Origin: Clavulina sp. PMI_390
Taxonomy: Eukaryota; Basidiomycota; Agaricomycetes; Cantharellales; Hydnaceae
Direction of reading: 5' to 3'
Assembly: GCA_015039315.1 (NCBI GenBank)
Contig: WIDE01000016.1
Span: forward strand, 62,001-126,000
Length of the DNA stretch: 64,000 nt
Positions 8,325 to 56,004 of the stretch are shown piece after piece. The position numbers and the translations under genes are program-made. The notes beneath the pieces are model-generated. The model had not been told where the DNA came from. It ran no database searches and saw only the letters and a list, made by a program, of their open reading frames with translations. How positions within the stretch are numbered: position 1 is the stretch's first letter; every line of letters starts with the position of its first letter.

Positions 8325-9704
8325 AGTGTCTAGTTAAAGAGTAGAAATTAGCTTTGAAGGGGGATATGAGCTGTGGAATGAGAGCCTCCAAGAGGTATGC
8401 TTTATATAGTTGGAGGGGGTGGGGTTGCCTTGGACGAGCACATACGCGTCTGCCGTCCGAATTTCGGTCTCGGAGCCCGAATTAATGGGCGATTCGGCTC
8501 AGTTTGAAGATTTCCATTAGTCAAATACGAGCACAGTACTAGTCTCACTAGTGCTAGAGGCTCTTTCGTGCGAGGTGGAGGCCAACAAGGACCAAATTAG
8601 GAAATTCTAAATTAATTGGCTAGCAATTCAAAGAGAGTTCTCACGCGTAGCTGTGATGAGCAGTAGCGTATGACTAAACACGTATGATACTGATGATGAG
8701 GCGTCCCCAAGAACCACAAGCTCATGCCAAGCTCAATTTAATTCAAGCATCCATCAAGATATTGGGCCATGGCTCCAACCGAATTTACCTGTTTCAGCTG
8801 TCTTGGGGCGGGGATCTGCCATGAAAACCCAAAAGACTCTCGATTTACACGGACCTGACAACGCCTTCGAGCACGGAGGAGGGAAAAAAAATCTGGCCGC
8901 TGTTTGTCTCTCAATGAGCTCAAATATGTTAACACACGCAGACGACGAAGGAAGTTGTTTTTGGCCGCATAGTGAACTCTGCAGATGAGTAAGTTGTCAG
9001 GTCTAGCCGGGTCCGGATGATGGCTGTATGGGCCCCTAATGAAATCCAAATATGAATATGGCTACCTCGAGCGGTCGGTATGCGGTTAGGCTGGGCACTG
9101 CTGACTGTGGAGTATGAACCAGAGCTGACAGCAGATCACTAGCCTGGCACATATCGGTGCCAATAGGATGTTTACCATTACAATAGAAGATATTTTGGAG
9201 GAGGAGAGGTGACGGCGTGCCCTTGAGCCAAACAGAACAGATAGCAGAGGGTACGAGCCAACGTTTTCGGACACCCTAATTATCGCCTTATGGAGGGAAG
9301 AGAGACAATGGCCATATCTATTGATATTATTTAGCGATAGATAAATTATCATGAAATTTGGTGATACTATTCCAATCCTGTTTGTATTTATCTCACCTGG
9401 TGTTCGACAGAGCAGGGAGACCGCATGTGACACTGACGTATGTAACAAGACCGTGACACTGAAGACCGCGAAATTTGTGACTTCTTGTACCCCAGATTTC
9501 AAGCTTGACGCTTTGATATTCGCTGGAAGAAACCTCCGAAGATTCTCAAACCGTTTCAAAAGACCTTGATAGGTCTGTCGACTCCCGAAATTGTTTCAAA
9601 GCAACGCTTCCTGGGCGATCCCCTTGCTTTGTTGCCTATACATTCTTCTGAGCCTGGTTGCCTTTCACAAACGGCATCAACCCAATCGCTGCTAAGAAGT
9701 CAAA
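8325..9704. other. Intergenic, divergent promoters of AKR copy B and RRP45
   Basis: About 1.4 kb separates two divergently transcribed genes. The open frames at 8738-9049 and 9086-9559 show no domain, splice pattern or biased composition that would support a gene. Nothing else is recognised. Confidence 0.5.
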
Positions 9705-17090: not shown

Positions 17091-20000
17091 TTAAAACATT
17101 GACTCGGAGGAGAACATTCTCAGTCCATCCCAGCTAGCACGCTTCTTCCTTCTCATGGTAGCAGTAGCGGTACTCAGCCCACCACTATTCACCCCATCAT
17201 CGTCAATATCAGCCTCAAACCCCCCGGCTGCCGCACCAAGCTCATCGCCCATGCTCCCTGCTAGTCCACCGGCAGCGGTGGCGGCCCTCACATGCCCCTG
17301 GCCAAAGCCGTGACCATGTCCATGACCAAAGAGCGATGATGCCTCGTACCCATCCAGGCCCAGACCCATCAGATTCAGATCGCGGGGTGCAACCGTGAAC
17401 GACTGGCCCCTGGAATGCGTATGCGGATGCGCAAGCATCCCACCCATCGCTGAATGTGAGTGAGAATGCGAATGTGAATGGGAGTGAGACACCATGCTGG
17501 CAGCAGTGGAGCCAACACTAGCAACGCGAGTCGATGCGGGGGTAGGCGTCGACATGCCAAAGCGTGACGGGATTGGCGGGATAGGGCCGTAGGGAGTCAT
17601 CGTGGTTCCTGACTGCTGCCCGTTCACGCTGAGACCTGCACGGCTGTGTCGCGCGTTGAGTGTGGATGCAGAAGGGGTCGTTGACGTAGGCGGCGCAACA
17701 GCAGAGGATGGTATGACAACTGACGCAGCCGGGATTGCAGGCCCTGATTCGTCGGTGTCCACATTCATCTTCATTGATGCTGATGCTGAAGCCGGCCGTG
17801 GCGGGGGTATCGCTCCCTTGCTAGAGCCAGCATTAGCGCCAGGGCCCATAGTCGAACCAAGAACGATTTCTGGCCCAAGCTGCTGCTCCTGCTGTTGTCG
17901 GGATCGTTGTGCGGCATCCAAGAGAGCCTCAATGAGTGGCCGATTAGTTGTGACATTTACACCACGGCCGCCGACAGTGCCATTGGCGCTGATAGCAGCA
18001 GCGGCAGCAGCGATGACCGCGTCAGACGCAGCAGAAACGTTTCCGGTATCGACGCCACCATTAGCATCTGCCCCCACACTCCGTCTTCCTAGCCTCTCAC
18101 TAGCCTGAAGCGCCAGGCCGAGCCCTAGCTCCAGCCCTCGCATGAACGCTGAATGATTACTTGCTGTCACTTGTGCCACAAGAGGATCGTTGGGGTTCTC
18201 ACGCATAAATGCAGGCGTTAATCCCAGCCCTAAAGCGGAGCCCGAGGCAGCACTCAAGGAGGCTGATGGATCGAGGCCTAATGGAAGCATGCCCATCTTG
18301 GCCAAGTGCGCGTGTTGACCGTAGTGCAAGTCTAGGGCAGCAGTGGACAGAGGCTCTGTGTGCGAAGTGGGCTGGGACGGTGGGAGCGTACCAAAGTATT
18401 CAAGCGAAAGCAGGTCATAGACGGATGGTTGGCGGGCCGTGTTTGCAGAATCCATGCTAGGGAAGGAAGGAGCAGCGGAAGGCGTGGTGAAGGCGGGGTT
18501 GGAAAACGCAGGAGCTACAGGAGGCGACCCAGCGTGATATTGGCGATGTTCCCCAGGCGGTTGAGAAGATGAACGAGGAAGATGAGAGGGATGAGGATGG
18601 GGGACGGGCGTCTGAGATCTTTGGTGGTGAAGAGGGAGATGCTCGGCAGACTGCGAGGCTGAGTTAGTGGACTGTTGGAATGCAGGTTGGGGAATGGACG
18701 CTTGGGGAACAGGCGACGAGTGAAGATACGTGCTGAAGTTTGGGCTGGCACTCGCAGACACCGATGTGGTCGCCGGCGGCTGTCTTTGTGAGAATGAATT
18801 GAATGAAGCTGATGACACATCCGCAAAGCTTTTGAATGAGGAAGGTGCGTGTACCGAGGATGTCGACGCCGAGAACGGCGCAAATGATGTGGAGGATCTC
18901 GAGCGCTGCATCTGCACGTGAGGAGTCGCCGCAGGCATTGCGTTCATGTTGGCATCAAAAGCACTGAGGCTTTGAGCGCCTGTCAAGAACGGGGAAGTTG
19001 GGGTGGTGTGAGAGCCACGATCATAAGCATTAGTCGACGGGCGCATCATGTGCGAGAAGAACGTTGTGCTATCTGTCCCTCCCAGATCAAAGGAGGTCGA
19101 GGTCCCGCCAGGGTGCATGCTCATGCTTGTCATGGGCCTTCGTAATGGGGATCCGACCTCATGCGACGCAGGCCCGAATCTACCCCCTACACTAGCACTT
19201 GCGAAAGAGCTGGGGTCGGCAGTCCGTGGCCTCTCAACAGAGAGGCTCGCAAACGCCTCGTCACTCGCAAATCCAAACGACTCGACATCATCCATGAATG
19301 AATCTGCACTGGTCGTTGGGGCTCCCCCGCCGCTCGCATTGCCGCCACTTCCACCGCCACCTCCACCGCCAGCATTGTCGTCTTCACTTTGCAAACTAAG
19401 CTGGCCGACCTCCATCCCGAGGTGGCTCGTCGTCCCGCTTGTCGTGCTAAGGAATTCAAGGTCGCGATCTGCCTGCAAGGCGCCACCTGAAATGAGATCG
19501 CCTGCATACGGGTGGTGCGTGAGCCCATTATTCGCTTCAGACGGGTTTGAATACTGATTGTGGTGTGGATTGCCATGATGATGGCCATGATGATGGTGAT
19601 GATGCTTGGACGCATATCCGTTCTCACCAGCATCTGAAGCGTATTCTCCTGCAGGCATGTTCATCGAGTTGTTCGCCCCCGAATAGAGGTCGTAACGATC
19701 AAATACTCCATGTTCAGGAATGGGCCAGCCAATGCCCATCCCTAGGCCCAAGAACGTTGCAGGCCGCGAGCCAGACCCCGAGGAGGAATCGAGGCGTGGG
19801 TTTGATGACATCCAACTCGAGGGACCCCATGCTGAGTTCCCGATCCGCGTGGAATGAGTAGGGGATCGGGGAAGGGGAGGCAGGGAGGCAAGCGCAAGCG
19901 TAGGAGATGTCGGCGCAGAGGGAACATTGACTTGGGGATTAGCGTGCGGAACAGCTGACAGCTGATCAGGCGAGGGCCGTCCTGCCTCAGTCGACGACGT

Positions 20001-22328
20001 CAGAGTAGTGAAGAGGCTAGACGACAACGGGACGGTTTCTGGGGCCGGAGCTGCTGGGGATTCATCCATAAAGGAAGATGTGAGGTAGGGAGGGATGGTT
20101 TCCATGACTGACGTAGGTTCTGCTTTCACTACCGTGCTACTGGTATAGCTGGGTGGTTGCAGCAATTGCCCAGAAGATGAAGGTAATGAGGTCATCGATG
20201 TTGGGTCTGTGCCCATGGACATGTCATAGTCGCTTGATGCCATTCTCGAGAGGGAAGAATCTTCAGGCGAGCTTGCTTGCAGGGGTAACTCATCATCCCC
20301 GTCATCATACCGATGGTTCGGAGAGGCTGCTGCCGATACTCTGCCATAAGGGATGAAATCATCATTGTCCTCCACATCAGAGCACGCTGCACTCGGGTTC
20401 GAAGACGGAGTTGACGAACTCGTTACGAGCCCAGGACGAGGACCTGGCCGCAGCGATTTCGAGCGCACAAGCCTTCCCAAGCCAGTGCCTTCTGAGCTTC
20501 GGCGCACTTTCGGTGGAGAGGGAGTCACACTTCGACGGGTGCCTGAGGGACCAGCCCCAGACGGGACAGAAGCGGAAATGGGAGGCGCAAAGGAAGAAGG
20601 GGGTGAAAATGTGACAGGACGATGGTGCCGCTGTGCGAGAGCGGGGACTGGGGACGGAGGCACGTTGAGAGGCGGCGAATTGCTGCTAGCAGCCCCAGGG
20701 AGGAGTGATCTTGACAAGGAAGCAGGAGTGTTCGGGACGGAAGAGATGGACGAGTTGATCTTCTTGGGCGGAGCGCGCGGCTTGTACCCTGCACCAACGT
20801 AGAGCTCTGGGAAGGCATTCCGGAATCTGTCACGCAGATCTGTGCTTCGCCTCGAGGCAAATATGGGGTCTTTGGCAATGGAGGCCCAGACGGTCCCATA
20901 CTATGCATTTCCGCAGTAGTCAAAAGAGAAAAAAAAATGCATGTCAGAACACACGACACGTTATGGAATAAATGCGCCGAGAATCCTGACCTTTTCATAA
21001 CCTCGTTTCAGAGCTTCGTCTTCCTCCGCTGTAAAAGGCCGGCGTTTCTTGGGCAGCGTTTTCTCAAACACAATTATGTTGTCTGGAAAGGCTGTGGAGG
21101 CGGGCCGATTAGAAAGGTGAGTTTTAGCGTTGGGATAGTGCTTCCTGTATGCGTCTGGGAACGATACTCGGAATCTGCGTTGCATTTTGGCGGTTAGTGA
21201 TTGTGGTTCGGAATGACAGGGGCCGCCGCTGACCACACACATACGCACCTATCTTTCAGGTCAACAGGCGACCTGTCTTGAAAGTGGAATCGAGGATCCT
21301 CAAGAATCATCTTCCAATTCCCAACACCATGCTGTGCCAGATGTGAGAGAGTGAAAGTGGAGTTGAGCGCTTGGTGTACTTGACACAAAGTGTGATGGAA
21401 AGCATATACGCACAATTTTGCAGCCCTCCACAAGACATTTAGTCTCTTCCTCTGTCCACATGTTCCTCCGTGCTCGTTTAGGAGCAGGGTCTAGTGGTGG
21501 ATCCATCGTGCCGGCGCTAGAGGTGCTTGGAAGAGGCGGAGCTGGTGGTAAATGCCGCAAGTCTGCACTCATTGAGAGAGAGTTGGCTTTGCGGGGTCGT
21601 CCTCGTCGGGTTGGACCTGCGCTTGAGCTAGTACTGGGGCCAGCCACTACTGATGCTGCCGCGGAGCCGGACGAGGAGGGAGAGCGGTGGGTGGGGGGGC
21701 GAAAGGGGGCGGCAGCAGGGGGAGGAGAGGTCGAGAGGGTGGCAAGGTCAGGCTGGAAGGGACTCTGGTTCATGGAATCGGGATTCGCAGAGGTGGGAGA
21801 GAAGAGGCCGAGGCCCATTTCATCGCGGAATGCCTGGACGCGCGAGGCGGGTGATGAAGACGATGATGAAGATGATGCAATGCTCATGCCAATACCAAGA
21901 GACGGCTCGTGCAGGGCTGACGTAGACACACGCCGCGGCTTAAGTTTGGGAGTGGTGTTTCCAGCCGCGTCAGCGTTATTAGAGTCATCGTCGTCTGGGA
22001 GGACATCAGCACCCGCTCGAGACGGCGAATGGGGCGTCGAGGGGGACCCCCAGGCAAGCCTCCTGTTGGCTTCGTCGACTTCCGGAGATGAGCCTAAGAG
22101 ACCGAAATCGACACCAGAACTGTATGTTAGGCCACGAGCACGACTCGTGGTTGGAGGCTCATTGGGATTCTGCAGAGACTTTGGAGTGGCCGAGTCGAGC
22201 GCAAAGAGAGTGCTGGGCAGAGTGCGTGCCTTGGCCTTGCCTATAGTGGTGGCCGAAGCAGACTGGCTATCTGCTGTTTGCGAAGCTGTCGCTGCTGCAG
22301 CTTCAATCGCTGCAGCTGCCATGGCCAT
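17091..22328 (-). CDS. TAY1: Double Myb/telobox telomere-binding protein (Tay1/Teb1-like)
   Basis: A predicted duplex telomere-repeat binding protein related to Tay1 of Yarrowia and Ustilago and Teb1 of fission yeast. Four exons sum to 1663 residues: 22328-21414, 21331-21249, 21174-20991 and 20900-17091. The first Myb repeat (about residues 288-345) begins NMWTEEETKCLVEGC, continues HGVGNWKMILEDPRF, and ends with telobox VDLKDRFRVSFPDAY. The second (about 375-435) begins RRPFTAEEDEALKRGY, continues YGTVWASIAKDP, and ends with telobox TDLRDRFRNAFPELY. Residues 1-285 hold an AT-hook-like GRPRK (about residue 245), serine runs and acidic patches. The C-terminal 1200 residues are low complexity, with a His-rich segment (around 19560-19605) and alternating His-Ser repeats (around 17450-17490). 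The telobox pair makes the DNA-binding call strong. The nuclear telomere role is inferred from family. The size is unusually large. Confidence 0.8.
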
Positions 22329-24751: not shown

Positions 24752-26527
24752 ATGGCATTCACTCCAGCACCAATCATCGTCTGCTTCCTCGCGACCTTCT
24801 TTGTGCTCATTCCTCTCCCATGGCACTGGCGCACTCGTAACATCCCGACCGTAGCCAGCATTATCTGGCTCGCCCAGGCCAACTTCTTCCGTGGCGTTAG
24901 CGCAATCATCTGGCGAGACAACGTTGTGCGCCATCACCTCGTCTATGGCGATATTGGTCAGTCTCATTTTCCTCGCAATTCTCCCTCTCTCCCTCCCCCC
25001 TTTCCCACATGTCTTTATTGACGAACCCTTTCGAATCCTATTTTAGTTCTCCAGCTGCAGGTTGCAAGTCTATGGGGCCTAACCGCCGCAGCCTTCTGTA
25101 TTACTCGCCACCTCGAGTTCGTCTCAAGCCCACGGTATGCCACCACGGGTCTCAACGACGAGCGTAATCGGAAGCGCTTTGAGATCTTTATGTGTTGGAT
25201 CTCTCCCTGGATCTACTGTGGCCTTCGTGAGTAAAATCATCGGATCACGTTATCATTCAACCAAGGAGCGGCGATCCTGACTGCCAGCTTTTTCTTCTCC
25301 CTTTCTCCTGTCCAGACCTGATCGTGCAAGGTCACCGGTTCGATATCATTGAGAACATTGGCCCTTCCATCACCACCTATTGGTCATGGGCGAGCCTTTG
25401 GCTGTTCTTCCTCCCTCCGATTATGCTCTCGCTCGGCACCTCGTTCTATGCTGGTGAGTCGTGGAAGCTCTTTTTTCGCTGTGTTTATTCAGTTTTCCTG
25501 ATTGCGCTTCCTCTCTCCCCTCCATTTCAACTAGCTCGGGCCTTCTACTGGTTCTTCCAGCGCCGCGCGCAATTCCGCGACCTCCTGTCGAGCTCTGGCC
25601 TTTCCCACTCTCGCTACCTCCGCCTGATGGGTCTCGCCGTCGCCGAATTCCTGGGCACAGTCAGCTGCAACTCATATGTGATCTATGTTGATTCGAAGAC
25701 TCCCCTGCGCCCCTGGATTTCCTGGCAAAATGTCCACTCCGACTTCCGCCGTGTGGACCAGTATCCGATGGCGCTCCTGAGTTCGTATTGGTACAAGCAG
25801 TACTGGGTCGTGTGGTCATTCTATCCCTACGGCGCCTTCCTCTTCTTCGTGTTCTTCGGCTTTGGTCGTGAGGCTACCTTGGAGTACAAGAAGACCGCCA
25901 TGTGGGTGTGGGTGAACATCTTTAGGCAGAAGCCTGCTGCTCCCAAGCAGCACTCTGTCGGCCAGCTCCCCAGCTTTGTCGCATCGTGCGTATCTTTTCG
26001 TCCCCCCGTGTTCTGCCTCGAAGTGATGTACTGATTGCCTTCGTTCCCACAATAGTGATTCAATGGTGGAGAACTCAAAGGGTGTTATCGCATCCTCCAC
26101 CCACGGCTCCAGCGGAACCCAGCGCTACGGCCGATGGGACCCCACCGCGACATTCGATGTCGATTCGGATTCGCTCTACGATGCCGACGAGCACCGTGGG
26201 CAACGCAACGTCAACCTCAATGACCTCGAGTCGGGACTCAGCGTTCCTATCGATGGGATCCACGTCGCAAGGCGGACTAGCTCGTACGATGATGATGGAC
26301 ATGGCGTTGATGAGAAGAAGATGGGATACGAGGCATCCTTGGCACCTTCTTCGCTCAACACTGCCGAGAGAGAGAAGGAATTGATGGAGCATGAAGCACC
26401 CCCTCCAATGCCCCAGCTACCGCATCGCGTTGCCCTCTCGCAACCGAGACGGCTAAGCGATGACGGTTTGTCGAGTGGGCTGCCATCGCCAATGACACCG
26501 AATGACCCGCAACCAAGAGCATTCTAG
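24752..26527 (+). CDS. STE3: STE3-type pheromone receptor (class D GPCR)
   Basis: A seven-helix G-protein-coupled receptor for lipopeptide mating pheromones in the plasma membrane, signalling through a G protein to the pheromone MAP kinase path. Five exons (24752-24956, 25047-25226, 25316-25453, 25535-25985, 26056-26527) give 481 residues. Helices lie near residues 7-28, 34-58, 69-94, 112-130, 144-175, 205-230 and 268-290. Family marks are TRNIPTVASIIWL before helix 2, the conserved QGHRFDIIENIGP before helix 5, the cytosolic FFQRRAQF after helix 5 and SRYLRLM at helix 6. The cytosolic tail of about 190 residues is Ser, Asp and Pro-rich, as usual. No signal peptide is expected. Three pheromone precursor genes lie at 52.4-55.9 kb. 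Whether it is the mating-type-specific receptor or a paralogous STE3-like receptor cannot be read from one haplotype. Confidence 0.94.
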
Positions 26528-27314: not shown

Positions 27315-29229
27315 TCACTCGTAGGTAGAAGCAGGGCGCGCACCCAGCCCGGACTAGGAATGAACAGCATTAGACATCACCTCGACGTAATATCCTCGTA
27401 CTGATCATGGGACGCGGCAAAGACGAATCTTACGTTCTTGTAAACCATCTCCAGGGCAGCGAGGTTACCCAGTGTCTGTTCTTCCGTCACCCAAGTCTGC
27501 GGTGTCCGCCCAAGGACTTTATCAACAAAGGCTTCAAGCTGATACCGATATCTGAAGGTGCAAAGCTCCATATTAGTCCACTTGTATAGCCGCAAGGCTC
27601 GAGAACCATATCCATGACGAAACGAGAGGAGGATCGACACTCACGTTAACCAAGACGCGTCACTCTTCGCGTTGGAGTCGAGCCCCTCGAACGTGTATGC
27701 TTTTCGGTAGCTTTTCTTCGCACCATCCCCCTTCCCCTCTATTACCTCGATGGAGTGCCATAAACTCGGTGCAATGAAGTTATAGAGGCACACGCTGCCC
27801 TCTGTCCCGTCCACCTTGATCCAAGCCTGGATCATCCGTGGGATAACGAGGAAGCGGCTAGGCATAGCGAGATCACCATATATAGTGGTCGTCACGTTAG
27901 AAGGGAACGAATATGAGACTCGCATACTGCGATCGACTCGCTGTTCCTCCTCGAAGGCCTCCACCTGGATGTCCGAGGTATCGATTGGCTCGGCGCCGAG
28001 GACGTAGCGGGCCAGGCCAGTGGTGTAGCCTATAAACAATATGAAAGAATTAATATCGATAATTGAGCATGGACCATAAATGAGAGAGCTTGTGGGATGG
28101 AAACGAGAACTTACCTCCCAACTCCATCATGGCCCCACCACCAAGTTCATAGCTCTTTTTGATGTCTCCAAGTGGGATAACCGAGGGTGCAGCCAGTTCA
28201 GCTTCAATACTGGTAACTTTTCCAATCTTACCAGAAGCGACTAGTTGCTTCAGAGTTTGAATGGCGGGGTGAAATCTGTTGGATGAACATTGATGGCGTT
28301 GTATGTGAGGACGTGACGGAAGGATTCCTATCACAATCACGATAGCACACACAGTATGTGATAAGCTTCTAATAGAATGAGCCCCTTCTCCTTGGCCACA
28401 GAGAATAGCTTTTCTGCCTCGGCTCTGGTATTGGTTGCTGGCTTTTCAACCAGAACATGCTTCCCTGCCCGGAGGGACTTCAATGCCCATTCGTACTAGT
28501 AGATAATGGATTTTAGTATGCTTTGCCTCTACGGACCTGTCGTACCGTCAGCCTTAAGCTAACACTCACATGGAGACCTGATAGAGCATATCCCAGCCCA
28601 CACCCAAGGTCAGTAGTCAGTTGGGGGACACGAACGAGGGTATTGCACACCTGTCGGAAGCTAGTGGTAGGCGCATCATCAGTGGGAGGCATATTGCGTG
28701 TAACTTTATGAGCACTCACGGGAACATATACGACGTCAATAGATGGATCGTCTAGCAGGTCTTCGAGGGGCGAGAGAGTCAGCTTCATGCTACCTGTGAG
28801 TAGTTGGAGCAGAGAATATCACCGACCCACCTTGATACGAGGGATACGTCTTGGGGATGCCATGTTTCTTTGCAAAGGCTTTTGCACGCTCGGGGTCACG
28901 AGCGGCGATAGCCTAATCCACAAGATAAGTCCAAAGAGTCTCCACCAGAATGTTGGGTTGATCCCTTAGCAACTTAAGGATGTCGAGCTCACTTCAACTA
29001 CAACCTCAGGGTGATTGCGCGCAGGGCCGATTAATGCTCGAGGTGCGATCTTAGCAGCCCCTAGTATGCCAAATCTCAGCGTTCTAGGCTTCTTGGGAGG
29101 TGTTGCTGGAACGAACGTCTATCGTGCGGCCAAGTTTCGAAGGAGTTTATCCCATGCTCAAACTTTTAGCCGGCTTCAAAGGAGGCATACCTCATAGTTG
29201 CGAGAGATAAACCCAAGAAATGAGGCCAT
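27315..29229 (-). CDS. Gfo/Idh/MocA oxidoreductase (copy 1)
   Basis: An NAD(P)-dependent oxidoreductase of the Gfo/Idh/MocA family, closest in pattern to fungal D-xylose 1-dehydrogenase or dimeric dihydrodiol dehydrogenase. The start at 29229 gives MASFLGFISRNYE. The Rossmann nucleotide motif GILGAAKIAP follows, then AIAARDPERAKAFAKKHGIPKTYPSYQ, the tiny exons spelling LPTG and LH, then YEWALKSLRAGKHVLVEKPATNT with the family Lys in EKP. The C-terminal sheet domain includes VLGAEP, WIKVDGTEGSV, YTFEGLDSNAK and YQLEAFVDKVLGRTPQTWV, ending GARPASTYE. About 385 residues. One oddity: where copy 2 reads FHYRFHPA this copy reads YHILFHPA at an exon junction, so the conserved Arg is lost or the junction is misassigned. 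It is a tandem duplicate of the next gene. The substrate is not known. Confidence 0.83.
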
Positions 29230-29620: not shown

Positions 29621-31510
29621 TCACTCGAAGGTAGAAGCTGGACGCAGTCCAAGCCCAGACTAAAACAACCCAGGAGATTCGTATCAGTTCCATGAGTTGC
29701 TTGCAAAGAGTTATTCCACTGAAGGTTTCTCTCGCTGAAATGAGTAGCTAGAAGGATAAACAAACGCACGTTATCGTATATCATCTCGAGGGCAGACATG
29801 TTGCCAAGTGTCTCTTCCTCTGAGACCCAAGTCTGTGGTGTCCTCCCACGAACCTTATCAACAAACGCCTCTAGCTGGTAGCGGTACCTATGAAGAAGAG
29901 TTCGGAATAGTGATTTATGCCGAGGTATGAGAGACAGCACTCGAGAATGGAACGTAGATAAATCAAGCCACACTTACGATGTCCAAGAAGCATCGCCTTT
30001 TGCGTTCTGATCCAGTCCCTCGAAGGTATACGCTTTCTGGTATGTCTTTTTTGCCTTATCCTTCTTCCCCTTTGTAACCTCGATATAGTGCCAGAAACTC
30101 GGCACGATAAAGTTGTTCAGATAAACGCTGCCCTCAGTCCCATCTACCTTTATGCTAGCGAGTGGCGGGCGAGGGAGGACGTAAAGGAGGTTGGGTAGAC
30201 CGAGATCACAGTAGATGGCGGCAGTGGCGTCAGAAGGGAAAGAGAACACAACTCGCATGCTACGGTCGTTGCGCCTGTCCTCTGGGTAGGTATTCAGTTG
30301 GATGTGGAGGACGTCGTCGGGTTCAGCACCAAGAACGTAGCGGGAGACACTGGTGGTATAGCCTATCAGGAGCCATAGCAAATACAGCAAGAGCAATGTT
30401 AGTGAAGTGGCTGAAGATGGGAAAATCAAAGTGACCAAAACTTGCCCCCTGCATCCATAGTAGCACCACCGCCCATATCGAAGTTTCTCCTAATGTTTCC
30501 TGGGGGGGCAACAACTGGAGGGAAGGCGAGGTCGGCTTCAACGCCAACGATTTTTCCGATAGCACCAGAAGCTACGATTTGCTTGACAGTCTGGATGGCA
30601 GGGTGGAATCTGACACAATAATCGTAAGTGGTGTGTTCGTCTCTAACCAGAAGGAGAGCTGGCTGAGATGATGAAAACGTGAACGTACCGATAATGGAAG
30701 GCTTCCAGCAACACGAGGTTTTTCTCCCTCGCCAAGGCGTACAGCTTTTCAGCCTCAGCTCTTGTGTTGGTCGCAGGCTTTTCCAGCAGAACGTGCTTCC
30801 CCGCCCGGAGGGCTTTTACGGTCCATTCGTACTAGAAGCTGGTGTCAGAACGCATTCTGGGGGCAGGCATCAAAAATGGGAGGACAGTGGAACGAATACT
30901 CACATGCAGAGCTATTAGGGTGTGTGATAATTTATTGTCAGCACTGGCTCAACGTTTACAGAGCACCCATACACACTGTTGGGAAGCTAAGGTTTATGAC
31001 AGGATTAGCATGAATTCGTGTCGTAGGGGATTTGGATACTCACTGGGATATAAACGACATCAATAGATGCGTCGTCCAACAATTCTTCCAGGACGAAGAC
31101 CAGTTATGAGCTAAATACTACATATCAGCAAATGGGCCACTACTCACCTTGGTAGGAAGGATAGGTCTTTGGAATGCCGTGCTTCTTGGCAAATTTCTTT
31201 GCGCGTTCATGGTCACGAGCAGCGACAGCCTGTTGGTGAATCGCGATAAGGGTTTTTCGCCGCAGCGGTGTCAAGCGAATTGCTCACCTCAATAATAACA
31301 TCAGGATGAGTGCGCGCAGGAACTATGAGAGCAACAGGTGCAATCTGGGCAGCACCCAGAATGCCAAACTTTAGCGCATTGGATTCTTTGGGGGTCGTCG
31401 CTGGGAAGAATGACTGGAATGCATCCCACGTTGAGCATGACGAATTACCAAACCTCCGGTCGATAGCGTACCTGATAGTTACGAGAGACGAAACCAAGTA
31501 ATGAAGCCAT
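29621..31510 (-). CDS. Gfo/Idh/MocA oxidoreductase (copy 2)
   Basis: Tandem paralogue of the gene at 27315-29229, with the same exon pattern. The start at 31510 gives MASLLGFVSRNYQ. The Rossmann motif is GILGAAQIAPVAL, followed by RAKKFAKKHGIPKTYPSYQ, ELLDDASIDVVYIP, the small exon LPNTLH, YEW, and the catalytic region KHVLLEKPATNTRAEAEKL with EKP lysine. LLEAFHYRFHPAIQTVK is complete here, unlike copy 1. The second domain carries GGGATMDAGG, RYVLGAEP, IKVDGTEGSVYLNNF, FEGLDQNAKGDASW and YQLEAFVDKVRGRTPQTWV, ending GLRPASTFE. About 385 residues, all exons in frame. The likely role is oxidation of an aldose or trans-dihydrodiol with NAD(P); the exact substrate is inference. No linked pathway genes are visible. 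Confidence 0.88.
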
Positions 31511-33648
31511 GTCAAGGTTGGAGTTTTGACGTTTTCGCCGAGGACGCTTGCTGGAACTCGGCTTGTTGGACGCGTGAACGGTGGGACTCAACTTGAGTGC
31601 GTGGGAATGGAGTCGCCGACCCCAATGCGGCCTCGGATAGAACCACAGCCGGAGAGATACGGCCGCCGTCTTCGCTCACCATTCTGTCACCGTCACCAAC
31701 AAGTCTCAAAGTGCTACACTGACTGGCGGGCGTCAGAATTCGTTCTTTGCTGGTTGTTTTTCTGGGGGCAAATCAATTTGCGAAGATCGACATTGACATT
31801 GGCGCGTATGCCGGAGGAATTGTTGTTCCTTTCCCAGCAGCCGAATGCCTCGAAACATAGAACTGTTTCACTGAAATGATTGTGCCCTTCCCGATCGCGT
31901 TAATATTGTCGTCTGGACTCCTGAATTTCTGGCACTTCCGCTTGGATCTTCCGAGAAAGATATCTTTCCCACGATAGAACAAAAGAAACAAATACGCGAT
32001 TCCCTTACCTCTCATCATAGGCACTCTCCGCGCGACCCAAGAAGATGAACGACTGTTTGTTAATGTCTAATTTTGGTAAAAACGAACCGTTGGGATAGCT
32101 CTCTGATCGGTACGTCCGGGGCACGAGGCTAGGGTCGCGACAGATGCCGTTGGGTTCCCCATGGACTTTTTGTAGCAAATCTTAGAATGAGAGATGCTTT
32201 TGTGCCGCCAGATCCGCAATGAAGCATCTAACCCGCCCTCAGATAAGTGCATACATTCTAAAATTGTCGATAGGGTACGATCATAGAGTGGGGTTTCCCG
32301 TGCGCGGTTGCTCTCCGGAGGGTTGCGCTCTTCAGCGTCTGTTTTGTTCTCGTTGTCAGCTATTGTTTACGCTGTGCCGAGGATATCAGATACAGAGAGT
32401 GAAATGATTTGCGTAATGAAAATAAGTGGAGAATCTAGCGTGACAGCTAGGTGGTAGTGGCCGAGCCGGGGGAACATAGAACCAAGCTTCTGACATGGAG
32501 AATCGGGACAAAAATGTGACTGAAGCAGACACTACCGGAATCCCCCAGCACAGAAACGTTGCGCTGAAGGATGGGCCCGTATCATGGCCCTTGAGGATAA
32601 TACCCTAGAATCTAGGTAAGTCGCTAGCCCATTGACCTCTGAATATGACGTCTGAATATTCACCTTCTAAATTTTGGTCGCGAATTCGTTTCAAGGACAC
32701 CGTAATAAGCAGGTAATCCAAGCCGCAAGCTGAACGGCGCCGAGGAAGCAAATGCAACCTACACTGACGAGGTTGTGCACAACGGAAGGAGGGCAAGACT
32801 CAGAAACGACAACTGGTGTGGATATTGAGGGAGAACGCGAGTGCTGAGGCGTCCACAGAAGCACGGCTCGGTCCCAAATGAGGACACACTACATATAGAG
32901 CTTAGTATCCCAGAGAATCCTGACGCAATGCTTCGGATATTCCGACTGAAACCGCCGATGATGGCCGCTTTTTGATATCGCGTGAGACTTATGGACAACC
33001 CCGAGATGCAAGAGGGAGAGTTGGCATGCCTATCCATTGTACGGGTGTAACTGAGCTATCTTCTCTCATAACCTCTCAGCTGGTATCTCCAAAGGTAGAC
33101 GAGGTAATTGACTTGCGACCAAACAACCGCGTTTGTTTTACTATCATAGTGCGAACGAAGTAATAATGAACGGAATCAAATAGTAGAATGCCAGGATTCA
33201 GGAGAAATTTGAAGGCCCCAACGCCGAGGTGGGGACGGAAGCAATTTCATTCACCAGATCACAACAGAAATAAGGATCGCCATATTCGCTTGGTTTCTTT
33301 TTGTTCGACGCGTCGGGGAATCCATGTGGGGAAGAACCTAGCTGAACCTGCATGCAGTTGAATACTTCAAATGAAGAGGATGGGCATGCCATTATCTTAG
33401 GCAAATGCCGAGGTTCGTTCAGGTCAACAATGCCGCGTTGGGAACGATGAGACTCTTGAAAGAACAGATATGCTATTGGACGCGTCTGCTTATCGATTGG
33501 AGTGGGTACTGAAAACACGCACAATGGCCAATATGGTTCGTGTTTCGTGGGAGTCAAATGGGTCGCGCCCAAACAAGGATCAACAACCCGTTGTGGCGTC
33601 CCTCTTACCTTGTACCCCCCGCCTTCGCGCCTGGTCCCAACACGGTCA
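31511..33648. other. Intergenic between oxidoreductase and HMG gene
   Basis: About 2.1 kb of divergent upstream sequence. Short open frames exist on both strands (for example 33198-33677 minus), but none has a recognisable domain or splice-supported structure. No repeat, tRNA or short CaaX-type frame was seen. Confidence 0.45.
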
Positions 33649-36428
33649 ATGGCAGCCATGGCGTCGACGAACGACACGGTCGTGTTTCCTAACGACCCCG
33701 GCCCTCACTGGAACTCTCACCCTCCAATGATACCACCCTTCGACACCCCAGACGTCCGCAGACAACTCGACGAGCTCAAGGTCGTCACTCGCCCAGCCGG
33801 CCACAATATACCCCCAAGAAAATACCTTGCTCGCGTGCCTTCAGGCGAGAAGACACCTCGCCCCCGCAACCCATGGATCCTCTATCGATCTGATAAGCTT
33901 CTTCTCGCCAACGTCGTCGCTGCTCGAGCAGGCCTCACCGGTCAGCGCATGAAGCCCCAGGCTGGCCTCTCGCGCGACATTGCAACAGATTGGCATAACG
34001 AAAACCACGATGTGCGTGAGTACTACCAGTACAACTCGGAAGTCGAGAAGATCGAACACAAGGCGGTCTATCCCGAGTACAAGTTTGCTCCTCGCAATAA
34101 AGAAGACCGCGAGGCCGAGCGTGAGGCCGAAAGAGCTGTCGCTAGTGCAAAACGCGAAGTCGAGCGTGCTCGCAAAGCGCAAGAGAAACGCGAGAAGATG
34201 GCAGCACAGCGTCGCGCCAAGAAGGAAGCTGCTGGTGGTCGACCATCCCGTCCCCGCCCAGTGCCAATAGATGAGCCTGTTGCCTCAACATCCAAGAGTG
34301 GTCGTCCGGCTTCTCCCATTCCATCTTCCTCTTCCTCTATCATGCCCCCTCAACTGTATCCTTCGGTGTGTATTGGTTTCGCTCATGACTTGACTTGCAT
34401 GTGTGCTTCTTCCTCACCACGCCGCTTCATGCCTCTCCAAATTAGGAAACTGCGTCGACCTCCTCTGACCCTGCATCGCGTTCAGTCTCTGCGTCGAATC
34501 GTCGAGCACGAGTTCGCGAGGCGTCGGGCATGAGCGCCATTACTGGACTCAAGCCACTAGGGCCATCACCGCCGCAAACCTTCGGCGACGCGGCGCGGGC
34601 AGCAGGTTGGCCTGCTCAGCCTCAGGCTTCCACCTCAACCCAAGTATCGGCGCCCAAGGAAGAGCCAGCCGATATATCTTCCATCCCAGCTTTCGTGCAC
34701 GACCCTTCATCATTGTCTGATCAAGTGAAATCATCTTTCGAAGATATTCAGCCTGACACATTTCTGGCGAGCTGGGAGCGCAACTTTCACGCTATATCAC
34801 AGCCCGCTGAGCTCTCCATCTCAGAGGAGGACTCTGACCGCCAATACCTCTTTCGGCACCCTCTCACAAACTTCGGTGGAGACTATTCCGCAGACCCCAT
34901 CATCCAGATCCATCAGCCCTTCCACCCCAACTTCCCCGGTTTCTCCACTGAACTCACCAACCCAGGGGAGAGCTCTACCTCCAGCTATGGCGCGGAGGCA
35001 AGGCCAGTCCTGAATGCAATGGATAGCATGCATATATTTCCCGATGGCGATCCGATGCTTGCAACTCTCCAGCCAACCGACGAACCCTTCCAGTTCAATT
35101 TAACGCTCCAGCCCAACCAAGAGCTTTCCGGCCTTGGTATTGACCTAAGTAGCGTCAGCTGGGGCTCGTATGTCGATGCTGGGGTTGGTCATGGCGGAGA
35201 AACAGACGTTTCTCGGTTCTACAACATGCTGGGGGACCGCTACTCTGGAGGAACCAATGGCATCCACATGCCCGCCGGTCTCCTTCCCGCCGCTGTTGAG
35301 GACATGCAGGCTAGGCACAACTCTGTGGTGGCCGCCACCAAGGAGACCGCGAGTGCAGAGAAGACTGGCGCGAGTTTTCGAGGCGGACTGGATGCCATGA
35401 ACGGGTCGATCGTTGCCCACCGCGACGACACGCTGGCTTCGGTTGATGCTAGTGCAATCATGCCAAATATTGAAGATTATATCAATATCTCGTCACTCCA
35501 GGCCGCGACGGCGCAGTCTGATGTCCCTTCCGCTGAACAGCCGAGCCAGTTCCAGTGGAATGCGGATGGCACGATGGTTGTTGAGCAACCTGCAAGCAAC
35601 TCGTGGGCGCAGTACATTCGACAACCTTCACGCGTCTGGAGTCAGTCACAGAGCTTGACAACAGTGTCTGTTGCGAGCCCTCAGCATTCATATACCCCAG
35701 CAGCACCTACAGGGCAGCCAGGCGAGGTTAGTCTTGCAGATCCTTGGCTATCATATAGAGTGGACTGACATTCCTCCGCCCAGTCGTCTGGTACGAGTTC
35801 TGACGAAGAAGACTACTCTCGCCCGAGGAACTACACCGGTCCAATTGACACTTATGCTTATCGTGCATCATCTGCCTCCACCCCTACGATGGTGGCTCCT
35901 TCCCCCACTGTAACACCGGATAGTCGCCCATATGTCCCTCCCGCGGGCTCAAACAACAACGCTCGCCGTGTCGGTGGCACTTGGATGTTGCCGGGCATGC
36001 GCGAACGCCTCGAGGCGAAACTTGCTGCAGATGCACAAGCTCGAGCACAGGCACAAGCCGCTAAGGCCGCAGGCGGAATCGTGTTGTCTAAGCCCCCTCC
36101 TCCGAGAGTGAACACGGTCCACGTACCACCAGCTCATCGCAGTGCGTTCAGCGCAACGTATTATACCGACTCGTCCTCCCCACTCTCCAACTCCCCCAGC
36201 CCTCGATCAGCCAGCAGTGGGCCAGTTTTGGGCTCGCTAGCGCTTGATATGAATGGTCATCGGCCTACTATGGGCAAAATTTTGCGCAATCATGCCGACA
36301 GCCCATATACTTATGCGGGGACGCCGATTCCTGATGCTGTGGCGGTCGCAGGAGCGGAAGAGTATACTGGGTATGAGCAGCAGGTGTCGACACCGTTATA
36401 TCAGCATGCTGGGCCGTTCATGGAGTAG
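33649..36428 (+). CDS. HMG-box transcription factor (MATA_HMG type)
   Basis: A nuclear DNA-binding protein with one HMG box. Three exons (33649-34365, 34446-35726, 35784-36428) give 880 residues. The start at 33649 (MAAMASTNDT) is preferred over the in-frame ATG at 33502, because the extra upstream residues look non-coding. The HMG box lies at about residues 70-140: RPRNPWILYRSDKL, a helix with LSRDIATDWHNENHDVREYY, and the closing EKIEHKAVYPEYKFAPR. It is followed by a highly charged Glu/Arg/Ala coiled helix (about 140-205) and long Ser/Pro/Gln-rich regions that look like activation domains. Basidiomycete proteins of this class (Prf1, Mat2) switch on pheromone and receptor genes by binding ACAAAG-like sites. 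Being 7 kb from STE3 and 16 kb from pheromone genes makes that role attractive, but the orthology is not shown here. Confidence 0.86.
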
Positions 36429-51330: not shown

Positions 51331-52412
51331 ATCATGGAGCATACTTCGTACGCGGTATTCCCTGGCAAGGACTCTCTCCCTGGCTGTATAACAACTGTCT
51401 TTTGTGCGTGTACCACGGCGTTGTGATATCACGTAAAAATGTAACATTTAGTATCTTATGTGAATGTATCCCCATCCCATCTGGAGTCATCCACGAAAGA
51501 TCGAGGCACAAAAGGTGTCGCGTTGTGAGGGATCGATGGGACGTGGTCGCCTGCTCGCGCTGACTCGAGTTTGCAACCCCACACTTTTTTGTCCTGTCTT
51601 GGCAACTCCCTGCGTGGGGCACGCCGCATTGCCACACATCCGAGCACTCCTGTGGCGCAGCCAGCGGCCCAAAGGACTTTGCGGAGTTAGAGAGTTCATT
51701 TCAGTTATGTCACGCGAAGTCACACCGTTCGTGACAAGAAACAATCGTGATGATGATGAATTGGACGTGAGTGGAAAAAGACGAACGAAGTTGATACAGT
51801 TGGCCACGAAATTGGGCACAGACAGAGACAAGATATGAGGTGATAAAGTAGAGTCATGCAGACGATATCTCTACGGAAACCCGAAAATGAAAAGAAGATG
51901 AGGAACGAAAACCCCAGATGATGATGTGGGGATACTAAGTGCTCTCTTGCTCAGAGAAGGCAGCATACAAGGCATGGTGGACCACGACGCGATACGAAAT
52001 GGGCGAAGGGTATGACCGATGCGGGAGAAAAAGACGAATGGGAACGAAGGTTTGACTCGTGTATATGAGAGGAGGCGGGAGACTGATGACGAAGGGAGTG
52101 TGGTGGCCGGGACTGAGAGCATCCGATACGATGAGGAAATAAGTGAATAAAGATAGGTTTGAGTGGGGGAGGGTGAAGGGGGCGATATAATTGGGTGATT
52201 GGGTGGGATGTGGAAGAGTGTGTGTGGATGTGATCGCCCTCGAGTGGAGGAGATAGTGTGCTCGATGAGTCTCAGGGACTAGACGAGTGTGCTAAACCTG
52301 AGATAAGACCGGTAAGTTAGCATAATTGATTCTCAAATAAATGTACCAGAGCCCAGGATCCATGCAAGGAAGGGAGAGAAAAGACTTACAGCAATGCGAG
52401 TGGGTTTAGGAC
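51331..52412. other. Convergent intergenic, GPH1 and pheromone P1 3' flanks
   Basis: From 51850 to 52260 the + strand is purine-rich, so the minus strand downstream of pheromone P1 is pyrimidine-rich, as expected for its 3' untranslated region. Open frames at 51464-51838 look spurious. Confidence 0.45.
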
Positions 52413-52535
52413 TCATGCGATGGTGCAGGCCGTGTTCTTCGATGTCGAGTCCTCATCAGCGACCTCGACATCTTCCACACGGGCTTCGGTAGTAGGCGCA
52501 GGGCCAAAGAAGAGCAGCGAGAAGAAGGAATCCAT
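52413..52535 (-). CDS. Lipopeptide mating pheromone precursor P1 (CaaX)
   Basis: A 40-residue precursor, too short for ordinary gene calling. It opens MDSFFSLLFF, the typical start of basidiomycete pheromone precursors. An acidic middle follows (EARVEDVEVADED), then a short C-terminal segment STSKNTAC and the farnesylation box CTIA directly before the TGA. By family knowledge the Cys is farnesylated and carboxymethylated, and the N-terminal part is removed at a charged site, here probably after ADED. The mature lipopeptide leaves through an ABC exporter and is read by a STE3 receptor. No intron is present. A TATA-like box lies about 146 bases upstream. It differs from P2 and P3 in its mature part, so it may be a separate specificity. 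Certainty rests on the combined length, start, acidic spacer, CaaX and family-like neighbours. Confidence 0.87.
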   Translation of the reverse strand: MDSFFSLLFFGPAPTTEARVEDVEVADEDSTSKNTACTIA

Positions 52536-52680
52536 TGAGAGTATAGTGGTATTTCGAGGAGGTTTATTGGGATTTTGATCGACACAGGCGGCGAAGTTGC
52601 TGCGAGTTGCAAGAAGTAGGCGTCGACTCGGAGAGGGCAGGGAGCTTTGCTGGAGAACTGAGGCATCGGTGGGATCGTTT

Positions 52681-52690
52681 GCTCTTTATA
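52681..52690 (-). promoter_or_regulatory. TATA-like box of pheromone P1
   Basis: The minus strand reads TATAAAGAGC, about 146 bases before the P1 start codon. Confidence 0.45.
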
Positions 52691-52810
52691 CGGACTTTGG
52701 GTCCATTGAGAAATGACTGGTGGGCCCTAGACGGAGCGCTATTGTACATGACGGCGTTAAGAGGCCTTAGCGGCGATGCTGTTTGTCGGGCCACACATTC
52801 GCACCCGAAA

Positions 52811-52819
52811 CGCTATTGT
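52811..52819 (-). promoter_or_regulatory. ACAATAGCG motif upstream of P1
   Basis: The nine bases ACAATAGCG on the minus strand lie 276 bases before the P1 start. The same nine bases lie upstream of P2, and a variant lies upstream of P3. The core resembles HMG-box targets. The role is inferred. Confidence 0.3.
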
Positions 52820-54333
52820 TATCGTGTGGGTATCAGACAACCTAGAGGCGCACAAAAGAGACGTATATGAGTCAAGTAAGCTCGGCATTGCCACTGGGAG
52901 TGTCGGTGCTGTAAGGTGTGTGGTTGGACGGCGCTTAGAGGCATGAGATTTAGCGGAGCAAGATCTGCACAGCCACTCGACGATTGAATTGCCGGAGGGT
53001 CCGAGAGCTTCCCGACAAACGCCACTTCAGCACTCCTCTGGACTTCATGGCTAGCAATGAATATAACGAATAGGAGTCGATAAACTGATATATATGCCGG
53101 CTGCTGTTATCAGCCGCACACACACGTCAGGAGACACGATTGGGAATCAGGAACTCCGCCTTGGCTGGATCTGGCGACGCCGACTGTTCCCATCGCCCGC
53201 TCAACATTCGTCACTCACGCACTGCCCACCAATAATTAGATCTTATTTTCGGCGCACTTTGGAAGACGAAGAAGCGGATCTGCCAGCGAGGTCGAGCAGA
53301 TCGTCAAGGATTTTCTCTCTATTTTCACAGACACCTTCCTACAACCTACACCTGTGAGAACCCAGTTTCGTCACCTTCTGCATCGAGAGCGTTAGACCAC
53401 CGCACACAATCGGTACTCTTTGTCTAACTCCCTCCCCCCGGCCGGGCGCCGCCCCTGTCCTGCCGTTATCATCGGGCATGGCGAGTCATCTGGTTTGTGT
53501 AGAGCGGCCGTCAACGGCTCTCAACACAAGGCGTTTCAGGGTTGTCAGTACCAGCCCATATCAACCCAATAGACAAAAAACCCCCATCCCCGGGGAATTT
53601 ATGCGACATTTCCCCCCAACCAATCACGAGGAAGATATGGACTGTATATGTCTGAGCATAAGGTGCCGCGCGTGTCTTCCTCTAAATCCGCACGACCTCC
53701 ACCTGCCGCGTCCCAATAGCCCGACCAGCGTCTTCGGGACTTCTAAGTCTTGTTGGCTTACTCATGTGAGAGACGCAATGTGAGAAGCGTTTTCGCGAGC
53801 GGTATGCGCGTCAGCGAGCGACATGTAGCTTGCGTGCCAGTGTCTCTCGCTCAGATGTCTAACAAGGTTTGAGTTACGGTCACGCGGACTCGCCTCTTAT
53901 TTCAGGTTCAGGAACCGTTTTGAAATAACTTAGGGTTCGATAGGAGGTGGCTAAGCCGATGGTCATGCGCGTCCTTATGTCGTCACAGGCGTTAAGCAGA
54001 TCACTCTCAGTGGTGTGTTATGAGCAGAACCGACAATGTCCCGACATAAATATAATTCCTCGATGATAGATCTCTGTTAATCGGCGTGCCCTGTTGCCAA
54101 CCCAACGAGATTATTCCTCTAAGTTCTACTCTTCATGGGCGAATCCTCATCTCACTCTACTTCATTGCCATTGCTTGAGCCACTGAACCAATAACTCGGA
54201 CTCTGCGCCATCCATCGTGACTTTCTGCCTCATTCTCCGTCATGTGAGCGAGAAGCTCTCGCCTCCAGGGCAGTTATGAGACAAAATCTGCCTCTGCTCC
54301 TGTTGCGCGCGAGTTATGTGCGCACAGTCCCCG

Positions 54334-54342
54334 ACAATAGCG
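54334..54342 (+). promoter_or_regulatory. ACAATAGCG motif upstream of P2
   Basis: Identical to the nine-base sequence upstream of P1, and about 147 bases before the P2 start codon. Candidate regulator site. Confidence 0.3.
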
Positions 54343-54376
54343 ACCACCGCCGAGAGACAACGGCTGCAAAAGAAGC

Positions 54377-54384
54377 TATTTAAG
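54377..54384 (+). promoter_or_regulatory. TATA-like box of pheromone P2
   Basis: TATTTAAG, about 105 bases before the P2 start codon. Confidence 0.4.
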
Positions 54385-54488
54385 GACCCTTGTCTGCGTC
54401 GTCTTCTCGCTCTCTCCAGCATCTGCTCCAGAATCTCCTCGCTCGTCTACCCCACTTGCCCAAACTCCCAAACAATCTCTCTATCCCA

Positions 54489-54605
54489 ATGGATTCTATC
54501 TTCACCGTCTTCTACCCCGTCGATAACGCTGCTGTCGAGGAGACCGAGATCAACGATCAGGATGGTGGCGGCGGCGGTGGCAACACCAGCTGCGTGGTCG
54601 CGTAA
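54489..54605 (+). CDS. Lipopeptide mating pheromone precursor P2 (CaaX)
   Basis: A 38-residue precursor opening MDSIFTVFYP, continuing through an acidic spacer (VEETEINDQD) to a glycine-rich C-terminal segment GGGGGGNTSC and the CaaX box CVVA at the TAA. It is the clear paralogue of P3: from VD onward 21 of 28 residues are identical. The expected maturation is farnesylation and carboxymethylation of the Cys, with N-terminal cleavage at the charged NDQD stretch. The predicted mature peptide is unusually glycine-rich. There is no intron. The downstream 450 bases are pyrimidine-rich, as in other expressed genes of the window. The nearest STE3 receptor in the window is about 28 kb to the left. 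The start at 54489 is the only ATG that gives the canonical MDS opening. Confidence 0.88.
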   Translation: MDSIFTVFYPVDNAAVEETEINDQDGGGGGGNTSCVVA

Positions 54606-55805
54606 AGGTGAGCTCGTCGATCTTCTTCCTCTTTCTTCTTGCGCCTTTGCTTTTTGCCCCTGATACTCCTCTATCGTTCAACTTGAGGCTAACCGCTCGC
54701 GTTTTCCGTTTATCCCATCGTATGCTAGGTCCTCCGCTAAGGCCCACACGCATCTCCCACTCCTCTCTCTCCTGCCTCCCCCAATTCCTCCATCCTCAAC
54801 AGACACTTCCTTCTCCCTTCTCCTTTGCTACTCATTCGAGACGACCCTATCCCTTATTCTTTCATCTATTCGTTCGTTCTTGCTCTCAACGCCTCCATCT
54901 TTCCCTTGTTCGCAGCCGCACGCAGTAGATCGCCATCCTCGTTCGGATATATGTCTCTGTGTACCCGAACCTTTCACCCGTCGATCTACTCTCTCGCTCC
55001 TTCCCTAGGCTTGCACACTGTGTATTGGCTTGGCATTTCGCCCCTCCATTCCATTGTTGTACATTATAGCCGTGATAGCTTTATGGTTATCTAAAAACTG
55101 TGTTTTGTTTCGCGCGAAGATCAACTTCATTGACTAACGCTCTTAAGCCGACTAGTGTGACTGCAGATTTCTCCTAGGCCAGAGTTTGAGCAAAACACGG
55201 ACGTGATTCCGAAACGCATGCATGCGTTCAGGGGTACAGTACCTTGGTCGCTTCTGAGGCGAGAGTGTTGAGACGGCTGGAAACAGCAAAGGCCAAATAT
55301 GGAAGGACAGGGTTGTGGTCAAAGCGGTTGCGTCCCCGCTAACGACTTGTCCCCTCATAACCAGCTCTAGCGGGCCTCATTATTCGGCGCGAGCAACTCT
55401 AAAGTTAGGACATCTCAGATGATAGGATTGATACAAAAGCGCAAAACGAGGAAGTTAATGGCACAGAGTTTGAGGTACATGGACGCAAAGCTAAGACAGG
55501 GGAATTAGGGAGAAAGACGAGGATGACACTACAACAAAGGAAGGAACCGTCGAGAAATGAGGGGAAGAGTGAGGGGTTGGGATGGGAGGCAAGAATGGAG
55601 AGGATGGCTCGTGTGTGCGGCACGGCCTTGGATGAGGGGAAGGACAGGATAGTTGGGGGAAGAGAGCAATGCGGGGATGATTGGCAGCGGATGGGCCTAC
55701 AGTTAGAGGCAAGAGGAGGGGAGGGGGCGTCAGTTACAGCTGAAGGCTGAGACATCTAGCATCGAATGGTAGCTACTGAGGGTGGGGGAACCTTGACCTC
55801 ACCAT
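54606..55805. other. Tail-to-tail spacer of P2 and P3
   Basis: Pyrimidine-rich on the + strand after P2 (54606-55000) and on the minus strand after P3 (about 55440-55760), which fits two long converging 3' untranslated regions. The frames in it are composition artefacts. Confidence 0.5.
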
Positions 55806-55919
55806 TTACGCGATGACACAGTTAGTGTTATAACCACCGCCCCTGCCATCTTGGTCGTGAATCTCAGTCTCTTCGATAGCAGCGCTGTCGACCAGGACGA
55901 CGGTGCAGAAGAAATCCAT
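55806..55919 (-). CDS. Lipopeptide mating pheromone precursor P3 (CaaX)
   Basis: A 37-residue precursor opening MDFFCTVVLV, with acidic spacer IEETEIHDQD, glycine-rich segment GRGGGYNTNC and CaaX box CVIA at the TAA. It is the inverted, tail-to-tail paralogue of P2. Changes fall mostly in the presumed mature part (Gly to Arg, Gly to Tyr, Ser to Asn), which is where receptor specificity would be set. An in-frame ATG at 55991 would give 61 residues. That ATG is only six bases from the TATA box at 55997-56004, so it would precede the transcript start, and the inner ATG is preferred. The inner start also matches the MD-aromatic opening of the other precursors. Processing and export are as for the family. 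Confidence 0.88.
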   Translation of the reverse strand: MDFFCTVVLVDSAAIEETEIHDQDGRGGGYNTNCVIA

Positions 55920-55996
55920 TGTAGGCTGGTTAAGTGTTTGGGGGACGGAGTAGGGGGAGTAAGAGTCCTGGAGACGGCAATCAGGGTCCATAGTGT

Positions 55997-56004
55997 TTAT
56001 ATAA
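55997..56004 (-). promoter_or_regulatory. TATA box of pheromone P3
   Basis: The minus strand reads TTATATAA, about 78 bases before the preferred start codon. Its spacing argues against using the upstream in-frame ATG at 55991. Confidence 0.55.

Follow-up and report, generated by a model that had tools for sequence, protein, structure and literature searches.

What are three very short open reading frames (ORFs) ending in CaaX boxes doing in the same stretch of Clavulina sp. PMI_390 DNA as an STE3-type pheromone receptor gene? The stretch analysed here, hereafter the window, comprises 64,000 nucleotides (nt), bases 62001-126000 of contig C68 (479,974 bases), in a genome of 39.4 Mb and 301 contigs from one strain only. 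The initial annotation held it to be a probable pheromone/receptor (P/R) mating-type region. Precursors and receptor are indeed present, but a mating-type role is less likely, since the precursors are alike and scattered and another contig, C33, fits the B mating-type (MAT-B) locus better. The three frames look like real genes for small prenylated pheromone-type precursors, presumably expressed, and their products are very probably true lipopeptide precursors, a conclusion common to the pheromone-like and mating-type readings. On balance, we favour a 'pheromone-like' (non-mating-type) or secondary pheromone/receptor system, one that would lack a mating-type role, and the primary MAT-B (P/R) locus is more likely on C33 than in the window.

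All three window frames are open and start with ATG. An ORF check agreed with the initial annotation on their lengths (40, 38 and 37 codons) and C-termini (CTIA, CVVA and CVIA, respectively) and added their strands (Table 1). The described anatomy is also seen, with an MD start, an acidic spacer and [EQ]D ahead of a short NTxC tail. Precursors 2 and 3 are convergent, 1.2 kb apart and 68% identical, and precursors 1 and 2 share 42% identity. For precursor 3, an in-frame upstream ATG would give a version of 61 amino acids (aa; 55806-55991), but the 37-aa start is likelier because of the position of its TATA box.

Genome searches retrieved two paralogues, on contigs C257 and C15, giving a family of five members (37-42 aa) on three contigs, all with an MD start and a C-terminal CaaX box on a short precursor. 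A search with the C15 protein returned four of the five and nothing new, precursor 3 being joined via precursor 2. Identity to precursor 2 ranges from 42 to 68%, precursor 1 is 50% identical to the C257 paralogue and 48% to that on C15, and the latter two share 83%. In the family alignment, 9 of the 44 columns are invariant, including N-T-x-C and the final A, and the common tail is NTxC-x-[IV]-A. The pattern NTxC-[..]-[VI]-A-stop occurs at six places genome-wide, five of which are the family, against two in a backward control; the sixth, on C65, has no ATG-MD frame and was dropped as a member. None of the other CaaX-ending frames (e.g. at loci L018 and L024) combines an MD start, an aliphatic CaaX box and a 3' intron pattern. 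The C33 frame has such a start and CaaX box but not the 3' intron pattern.

Short frames can be chance products or dead relics. The 8-kb stretch around the precursors holds 65 ORFs of at least 30 aa, short frames among them, and a more permissive pattern (M[DS] start, wider CaaX) appears 0.27 times per simulated window, with a maximum of 2. However, the pattern MD...C[VTI][VI]A, present at three loci in the real window, appeared in 0/30 first-order and 0/100 second-order Markov simulations of it. The five paralogues of the family are also intact and have upstream and 3' features in common, and nonsynonymous divergence (dN) is below synonymous divergence (dS) in 10/10 pairs (Nei-Gojobori; 0.13 versus 1.13 for C15/C257 and 0.19 versus 1.16 for precursors 2/3), the ratios being rough because dS is high to saturated. 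Chance or decay is hence hardly credible, even though annotation of the three window copies was not found.

A TATA box lies 84-155 nt 5' of the ATG in 5/5 members, against 9/362 short window ORFs in the same range. A candidate intron in the 3' untranslated region (3'UTR), with donor, branch and acceptor, begins 3-24 nt past the stop in 5/5 members and likewise in 9/362 short ORFs, while a donor alone follows 39/362. The three window genes should be among these 362, and the contrast is descriptive, since both patterns were written after the five members had been viewed. The element GTATAAAGAGC, which contains the TATA box of precursor 1, also occurs upstream of the C257 and C15 paralogues. The motif GTATAAARAGC alone was dropped as evidence (two one-mismatch occurrences in the window versus 1.1 expected), as were HMG-type motifs upstream of the precursors, which are short and inconsistent.

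A 17-base element is identical at C257:116071-116087 and C15:48366-48382, some 240-250 bases 5' of the precursors, despite a synonymous distance of about 1.1. It is exact at those two genome places only (eight places at up to two mismatches versus three in a control) and does not occur in the window even with three mismatches allowed, and so is not family-wide. In a DNA comparison of the fetched loci, the match between the C15 and C257 surroundings was confined to the precursor gene (91 bases).

Gene finders appear to have overlooked the three window genes, as the initial annotation had anticipated for genes of this size. A profile search with the five-row alignment against about 5.8 billion proteins returned only the Clavulina C15 copy (one of eight candidates), and the three window copies were not found. 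The comparison with pheromone precursors of related species that had been proposed thus led back to Clavulina alone. The C15 paralogue is annotated as an unnamed 73-aa 'hypothetical protein'. We rejected this model, whose extra N-terminus is probably wrong; the 42-aa frame is likelier because the longer model would place the TATA box within an intron.

A CaaX box by itself predicts prenylation only, no Pfam family matched any of the five precursors and no relative outside Clavulina was found. All this would suit small prenylated peptides that act other than as pheromones, e.g. inside the cell as membrane-anchored peptides. We consider such a role very improbable, given the precursor anatomy described above, the STE3 gene on the same contig and the candidate 3'UTR introns, such as those in Agaricus pheromone-like transcripts (PMC8305134).

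The basidiomycete pathway, as described in PMC5100862 and PMC8305134, consists of CaaX farnesylation, removal of the three C-terminal residues, carboxymethylation and a cut near a charged pair 10-15 residues before the end; the criterion given in PMC5100862 is a pair ER, ED or EH 10-15 aa ahead of the C-terminus. We infer comparable processing, cut sites and ligand-receptor pairing here. The CaaX cysteine would be farnesylated, the last three residues cleaved away and the cysteine carboxymethylated. The acidic leader would be removed near the conserved [EQ]D, and a lipopeptide of 8-10 residues ending in NTxC would be exported and then sensed by STE3-type G-protein-coupled receptors. In precursor 1 and the C257 and C15 paralogues, 11 aa stand after ED; in precursors 2 and 3, 13 aa stand after [NH]DQD. 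The predicted mature peptide of precursor 1, cut after the ED pair, is STSKNTAC (as farnesyl-Cys methyl ester); those of precursors 2 and 3 would be GGGGGGNTSC and GRGGGYNTNC, and those of the C257 and C15 paralogues SSSGNTAC and DGSGNTSC. Only precursors 2 and 3 yield clearly glycine-rich peptides, the other three holding 0 to 2 glycines.

The STE3 gene reported for the window is there and, by its spliced model of five exons, intact. A catalogued partial STE-3-like receptor from Clavulina sp. PMI_390 covers 59% of its product at 100% identity. The nearest precursor gene lies 25.9 kb away, and receptor and precursors fall within a 31-kb stretch. An HMG box in the interval between them (33460-34530, plus strand) was rejected as weak (21.2 bits against a cut-off of 25.4; best solved-structure match E = 0.17). 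Duplicated segments of 67-79% identity (27432-28502 and 29768-30838) lie about 1 kb 3' of STE3, and the single frame scanned there (29977-30489) had no Pfam match. Exon matches place five further STE3 genes on C33 (one), C269 (two), C296 (one) and C24 (one). Of the stretches of about 30 kb fetched at these four places, only the one on C33 holds a convincing precursor.

The window could then be a P/R (MAT-B) locus or sublocus in which the three peptides and their STE3 set mating specificity. Such a role would suit an intact receptor with three precursors inside 31 kb, in a genome whose other STE3 genes have a convincing precursor in the fetched stretches only on C33. PR subloci of Flammulina lie up to 170-181 kb apart (PMC5100862). 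Moreover, the window receptor falls on the Rcb2 side of our tree, and in A. bisporus an Rcb2-type gene marks the site orthologous to the PR locus (PMC8305134). Nevertheless, we regard this role as doubtful. The 26 kb between receptor and precursors contains unrelated genes, e.g. a phosphorylase, and no PBD (PAK), RIC1 or DML1-type match was obtained on C68 (PBD matches lie on C273, C280 and C33). The window is also the less likely MAT-B because its precursors belong to a family of five that are mutually similar, scattered over three contigs and partly glycine-rich. For Pycnoporus, the B-mating-type-like precursors are reported to be very distinct and the presumed non-mating pheromone-like ones to be more alike (PMC4101180). 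The similarity and spread of the window family fit the latter description, its glycine content fits the Agaricus type in 2/5 members, and C33 fits the B-mating-type description.

C33 is the likelier MAT-B because its receptor is of the Rcb1/Rcb3 clade, the ER-type precursor next to it is single-copy and a PAK-type kinase is also present. We consider C33:34269-44842 (loci L014, L015 and L016) the probable MAT-B locus of this genome. A PAK gene near MAT-B is frequent, not universal, and gene order at MAT-B is reported to be less conserved. On C33 the precursor lies 1.7 kb downstream of STE3, and a search for a second copy in the genome gave no match at E up to 10. ER-type frames arose by chance in 3/1000 simulations of the C33 30-kb stretch (which holds 899 N) and in 4/500 simulated windows. 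The PBD and kinase domains lie in different frames and are assumed to belong to one PAK-type gene; such a gene serves to locate MAT-B or is often linked to it in other species (PMC8970355, PMC3564976). Synteny with Trichaptum, where RIC1 and DML1-type genes are among the flanks (PMC8970355), is partial, because these genes are missing from both C33 and C68. At C33:38557-39117, a frame matching PSD13_N was also seen.

Receptor relationships were assessed with a careful tree of 39 hand-picked rows and a quick tree of 56, mostly drawn from the best 120 of 336 and the best 120 of 552 proteins. The C24 fragment, which had a very long branch in the quick tree, was excluded from the careful one. One half of the careful tree (16 rows, 100/100) contains Rcb1/Rcb3-type receptors and that of C33, which clusters there with two sequences from Hydnum and one from a metagenome (98/99). 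The window receptor belongs to a Clavulina group with both C269 receptors and that of C296 (95/87 in the careful tree; 92 by the SH-like approximate likelihood-ratio test, SH-aLRT, unstarred, in the quick tree). Sequences from Hydnum and Cantharellus are close to this group (9 rows, 100/100). As no row is labelled as a non-mating receptor, the tree speaks to kinship and not to mating role.

Several observations weigh against a non-mating window family and a MAT-B on C33. The non-mating receptor-like genes of Flammulina are described as unaccompanied by precursor genes (PMC5100862), unlike the window, where precursors and STE3 share 31 kb. In the tree, the window receptor shares its half with Rcb2-type and 'B mating type' receptors. 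The three Hydnum receptors retrieved fall in both tree halves and are all listed on contigs 296362 bases long, so that C33 and the window may be parts of one large P/R region split by assembly. Conservation of the family rests on paralogues of one genome, given that the profile search gave no outside relative of the window peptides. Precursor 1 shares only 42-50% identity with the other members compared, and the two [NH]DQD precursors have no doubly charged pair at the expected cut site. Under the patterns that fit the five family members, the C33 precursor has neither a TATA box within 170 nt (TATAAA lies about 195 nt upstream) nor a 3'UTR intron. RIC1 and DML1-type matches lie on C247 and C134, respectively, and not on C33.

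Homeobox_KN, the one homeobox family searched, matched on C27, C55 and C291 but not on C68 or C33, so that linkage of homeodomain (HD) and P/R genes is not seen within these contigs. Four KN-type matches lie within about 1 kb near a contig end (C27:5069-6003) and are possibly HD mating-type genes. Matches to Peptidase_M3, to which the usual MAT-A neighbour MIP belongs, lie on C290 and C285, not C27.

The pheromone-like genes of A. bisporus have a 3'UTR intron in their transcripts, seen in expressed sequence tags (ESTs), and glycine-rich mature peptides; in two species other than Agaricus the consensus sequences are GGGSGNGAYC and GGGSGNNAYC (PMC8305134). Like the Clavulina precursors, the non-mating precursors described there for Coprinopsis cinerea, Laccaria bicolor and A. 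bisporus are short, end in CaaX, have an MD-type opening and occur in several scattered copies. Their peptides differ from GGGGGGNTSC, DGSGNTSC and SSSGNTAC of Clavulina, with an AYC instead of an NTxC tail. The Clavulina genes further differ in having [EQ]D near the inferred cut and three copies clustered 26 kb from STE3, and their 3'UTR intron is predicted, whereas it is EST-shown in those species. The likeness is one of features, as the profile search showed no sequence homology. MAT-B of Trichaptum, Serpula and Flammulina (PMC8970355, PMC3564976, PMC5100862) resembles the window in having STE3 and CaaX precursors within tens of kb. Unlike in those loci, receptor and precursors are non-adjacent in the window, and C68 is without PAK, RIC1 and DML1-type genes; C33 fits better.

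Literature joining Clavulina with mating type and pheromone was not found under the terms used, nor was any with NTSCVIA and 'pheromone precursor'. Rhizoctonia is in the same order as Clavulina. No literature joining Cantharellales with STE3 and pheromone was found under the terms used, though the Rhizoctonia P/R locus is described, with RhiPra and an adjacent RhiMfa (PMC7884421). By layout, on which alone we liken them, it matches C33 and not the window.

A more speculative scheme, rather unlikely as a whole, would have two separate lipopeptide/STE3 systems in this genome. A canonical MAT-B on C33 would exist beside a lineage-specific system formed by the four related receptors of C68, C269 (two) and C296 and the five NTxC peptides, in which the window is the only ligand-receptor site found. 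The second system would be either an extra, unlinked mating-specificity locus or a dedicated non-mating signal, e.g. for fruiting or hyphal self-recognition.

Non-mating receptors are termed 'still-unexplored' in PMC4101180. Precursor genes are so small that they are easily overlooked, and the five NTxC peptides, one ER-type peptide and six STE3 genes make a candidate ligand/receptor inventory for a Cantharellales fungus. With a probable MAT-B and a probable pheromone-like system told apart, defined peptides could be used to test what function non-mating receptors and peptides have. A Schizophyllum paper reportedly has that function as its subject.

Table 1. Features of the window (plain positions) and of other contigs (contig name before the position); introns, spliced models and domains are predictions
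Feature	Position	Strand	Details
Pheromone-type precursor 1	52413..52535	minus	40 aa; MDSFFSLLFFGPAPTTEARVEDVEVADEDSTSKNTACTIA; ends NTACTIA; ORF and alignment
Pheromone-type precursor 2	54489..54605	plus	38 aa; MDSIFTVFYPVDNAAVEETEINDQDGGGGGGNTSCVVA; ends NTSCVVA; ORF and alignment
Pheromone-type precursor 3	55806..55919	minus	37 aa; MDFFCTVVLVDSAAIEETEIHDQDGRGGGYNTNCVIA; ends NTNCVIA; ORF and alignment
TATA box of precursor 1	52685..52690	minus	within GTATAAAGAGC; -155 from ATG
TATA box of precursor 2	54377..54383	plus	TATTTAA; -112 from ATG
TATA box of precursor 3	55997..56003	minus	TATATAA; -84 from ATG
Candidate 3'UTR intron, precursor 1	52298..52389	minus	GTAAGT...GCTAAC...CTCAG; 92 nt
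Candidate 3'UTR intron, precursor 2	54608..54728	plus	GTGAGC...CTAAC...CTAG; 121 nt
Candidate 3'UTR intron, precursor 3	55697..55802	minus	GTGAGG...CTAAC...GTAG; 106 nt
STE3-type pheromone receptor	24752..26527	plus	PF02076; spliced model, 481 aa
Exons of window STE3	24752-24956, 25047-25226, 25316-25453, 25535-25985, 26056-26527	plus	spliced model
Precursor paralogue, C257	C257:116313-116438		found by genome search
Precursor paralogue, C15	C15:48615-48740		found by genome search; 42-aa frame
ER-type precursor	C33:40945-41064	minus	MDHISTFALPEANPLPDNTEFPIDEERIKSLGYTQCIII; ER pair then 12 residues
C33 STE3	C33:42728-44842	minus	four-exon model, 646 aa
PBD domain	C33:36419-36670	minus	4.3 kb beyond C33 precursor; solved relatives of the frame are PAK proteins
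Kinase domain	C33, ~34.3-34.8 kb		different frame from PBD

Elsewhere in the window, a stop-free frame of 1269 residues at 17094-20900 (minus strand) gave no Pfam match. A tandem duplicate of 67% identity is formed by 4413-6089 and 6745-8406, with an aldo/keto reductase match inside the second copy (7095-7745, minus strand).

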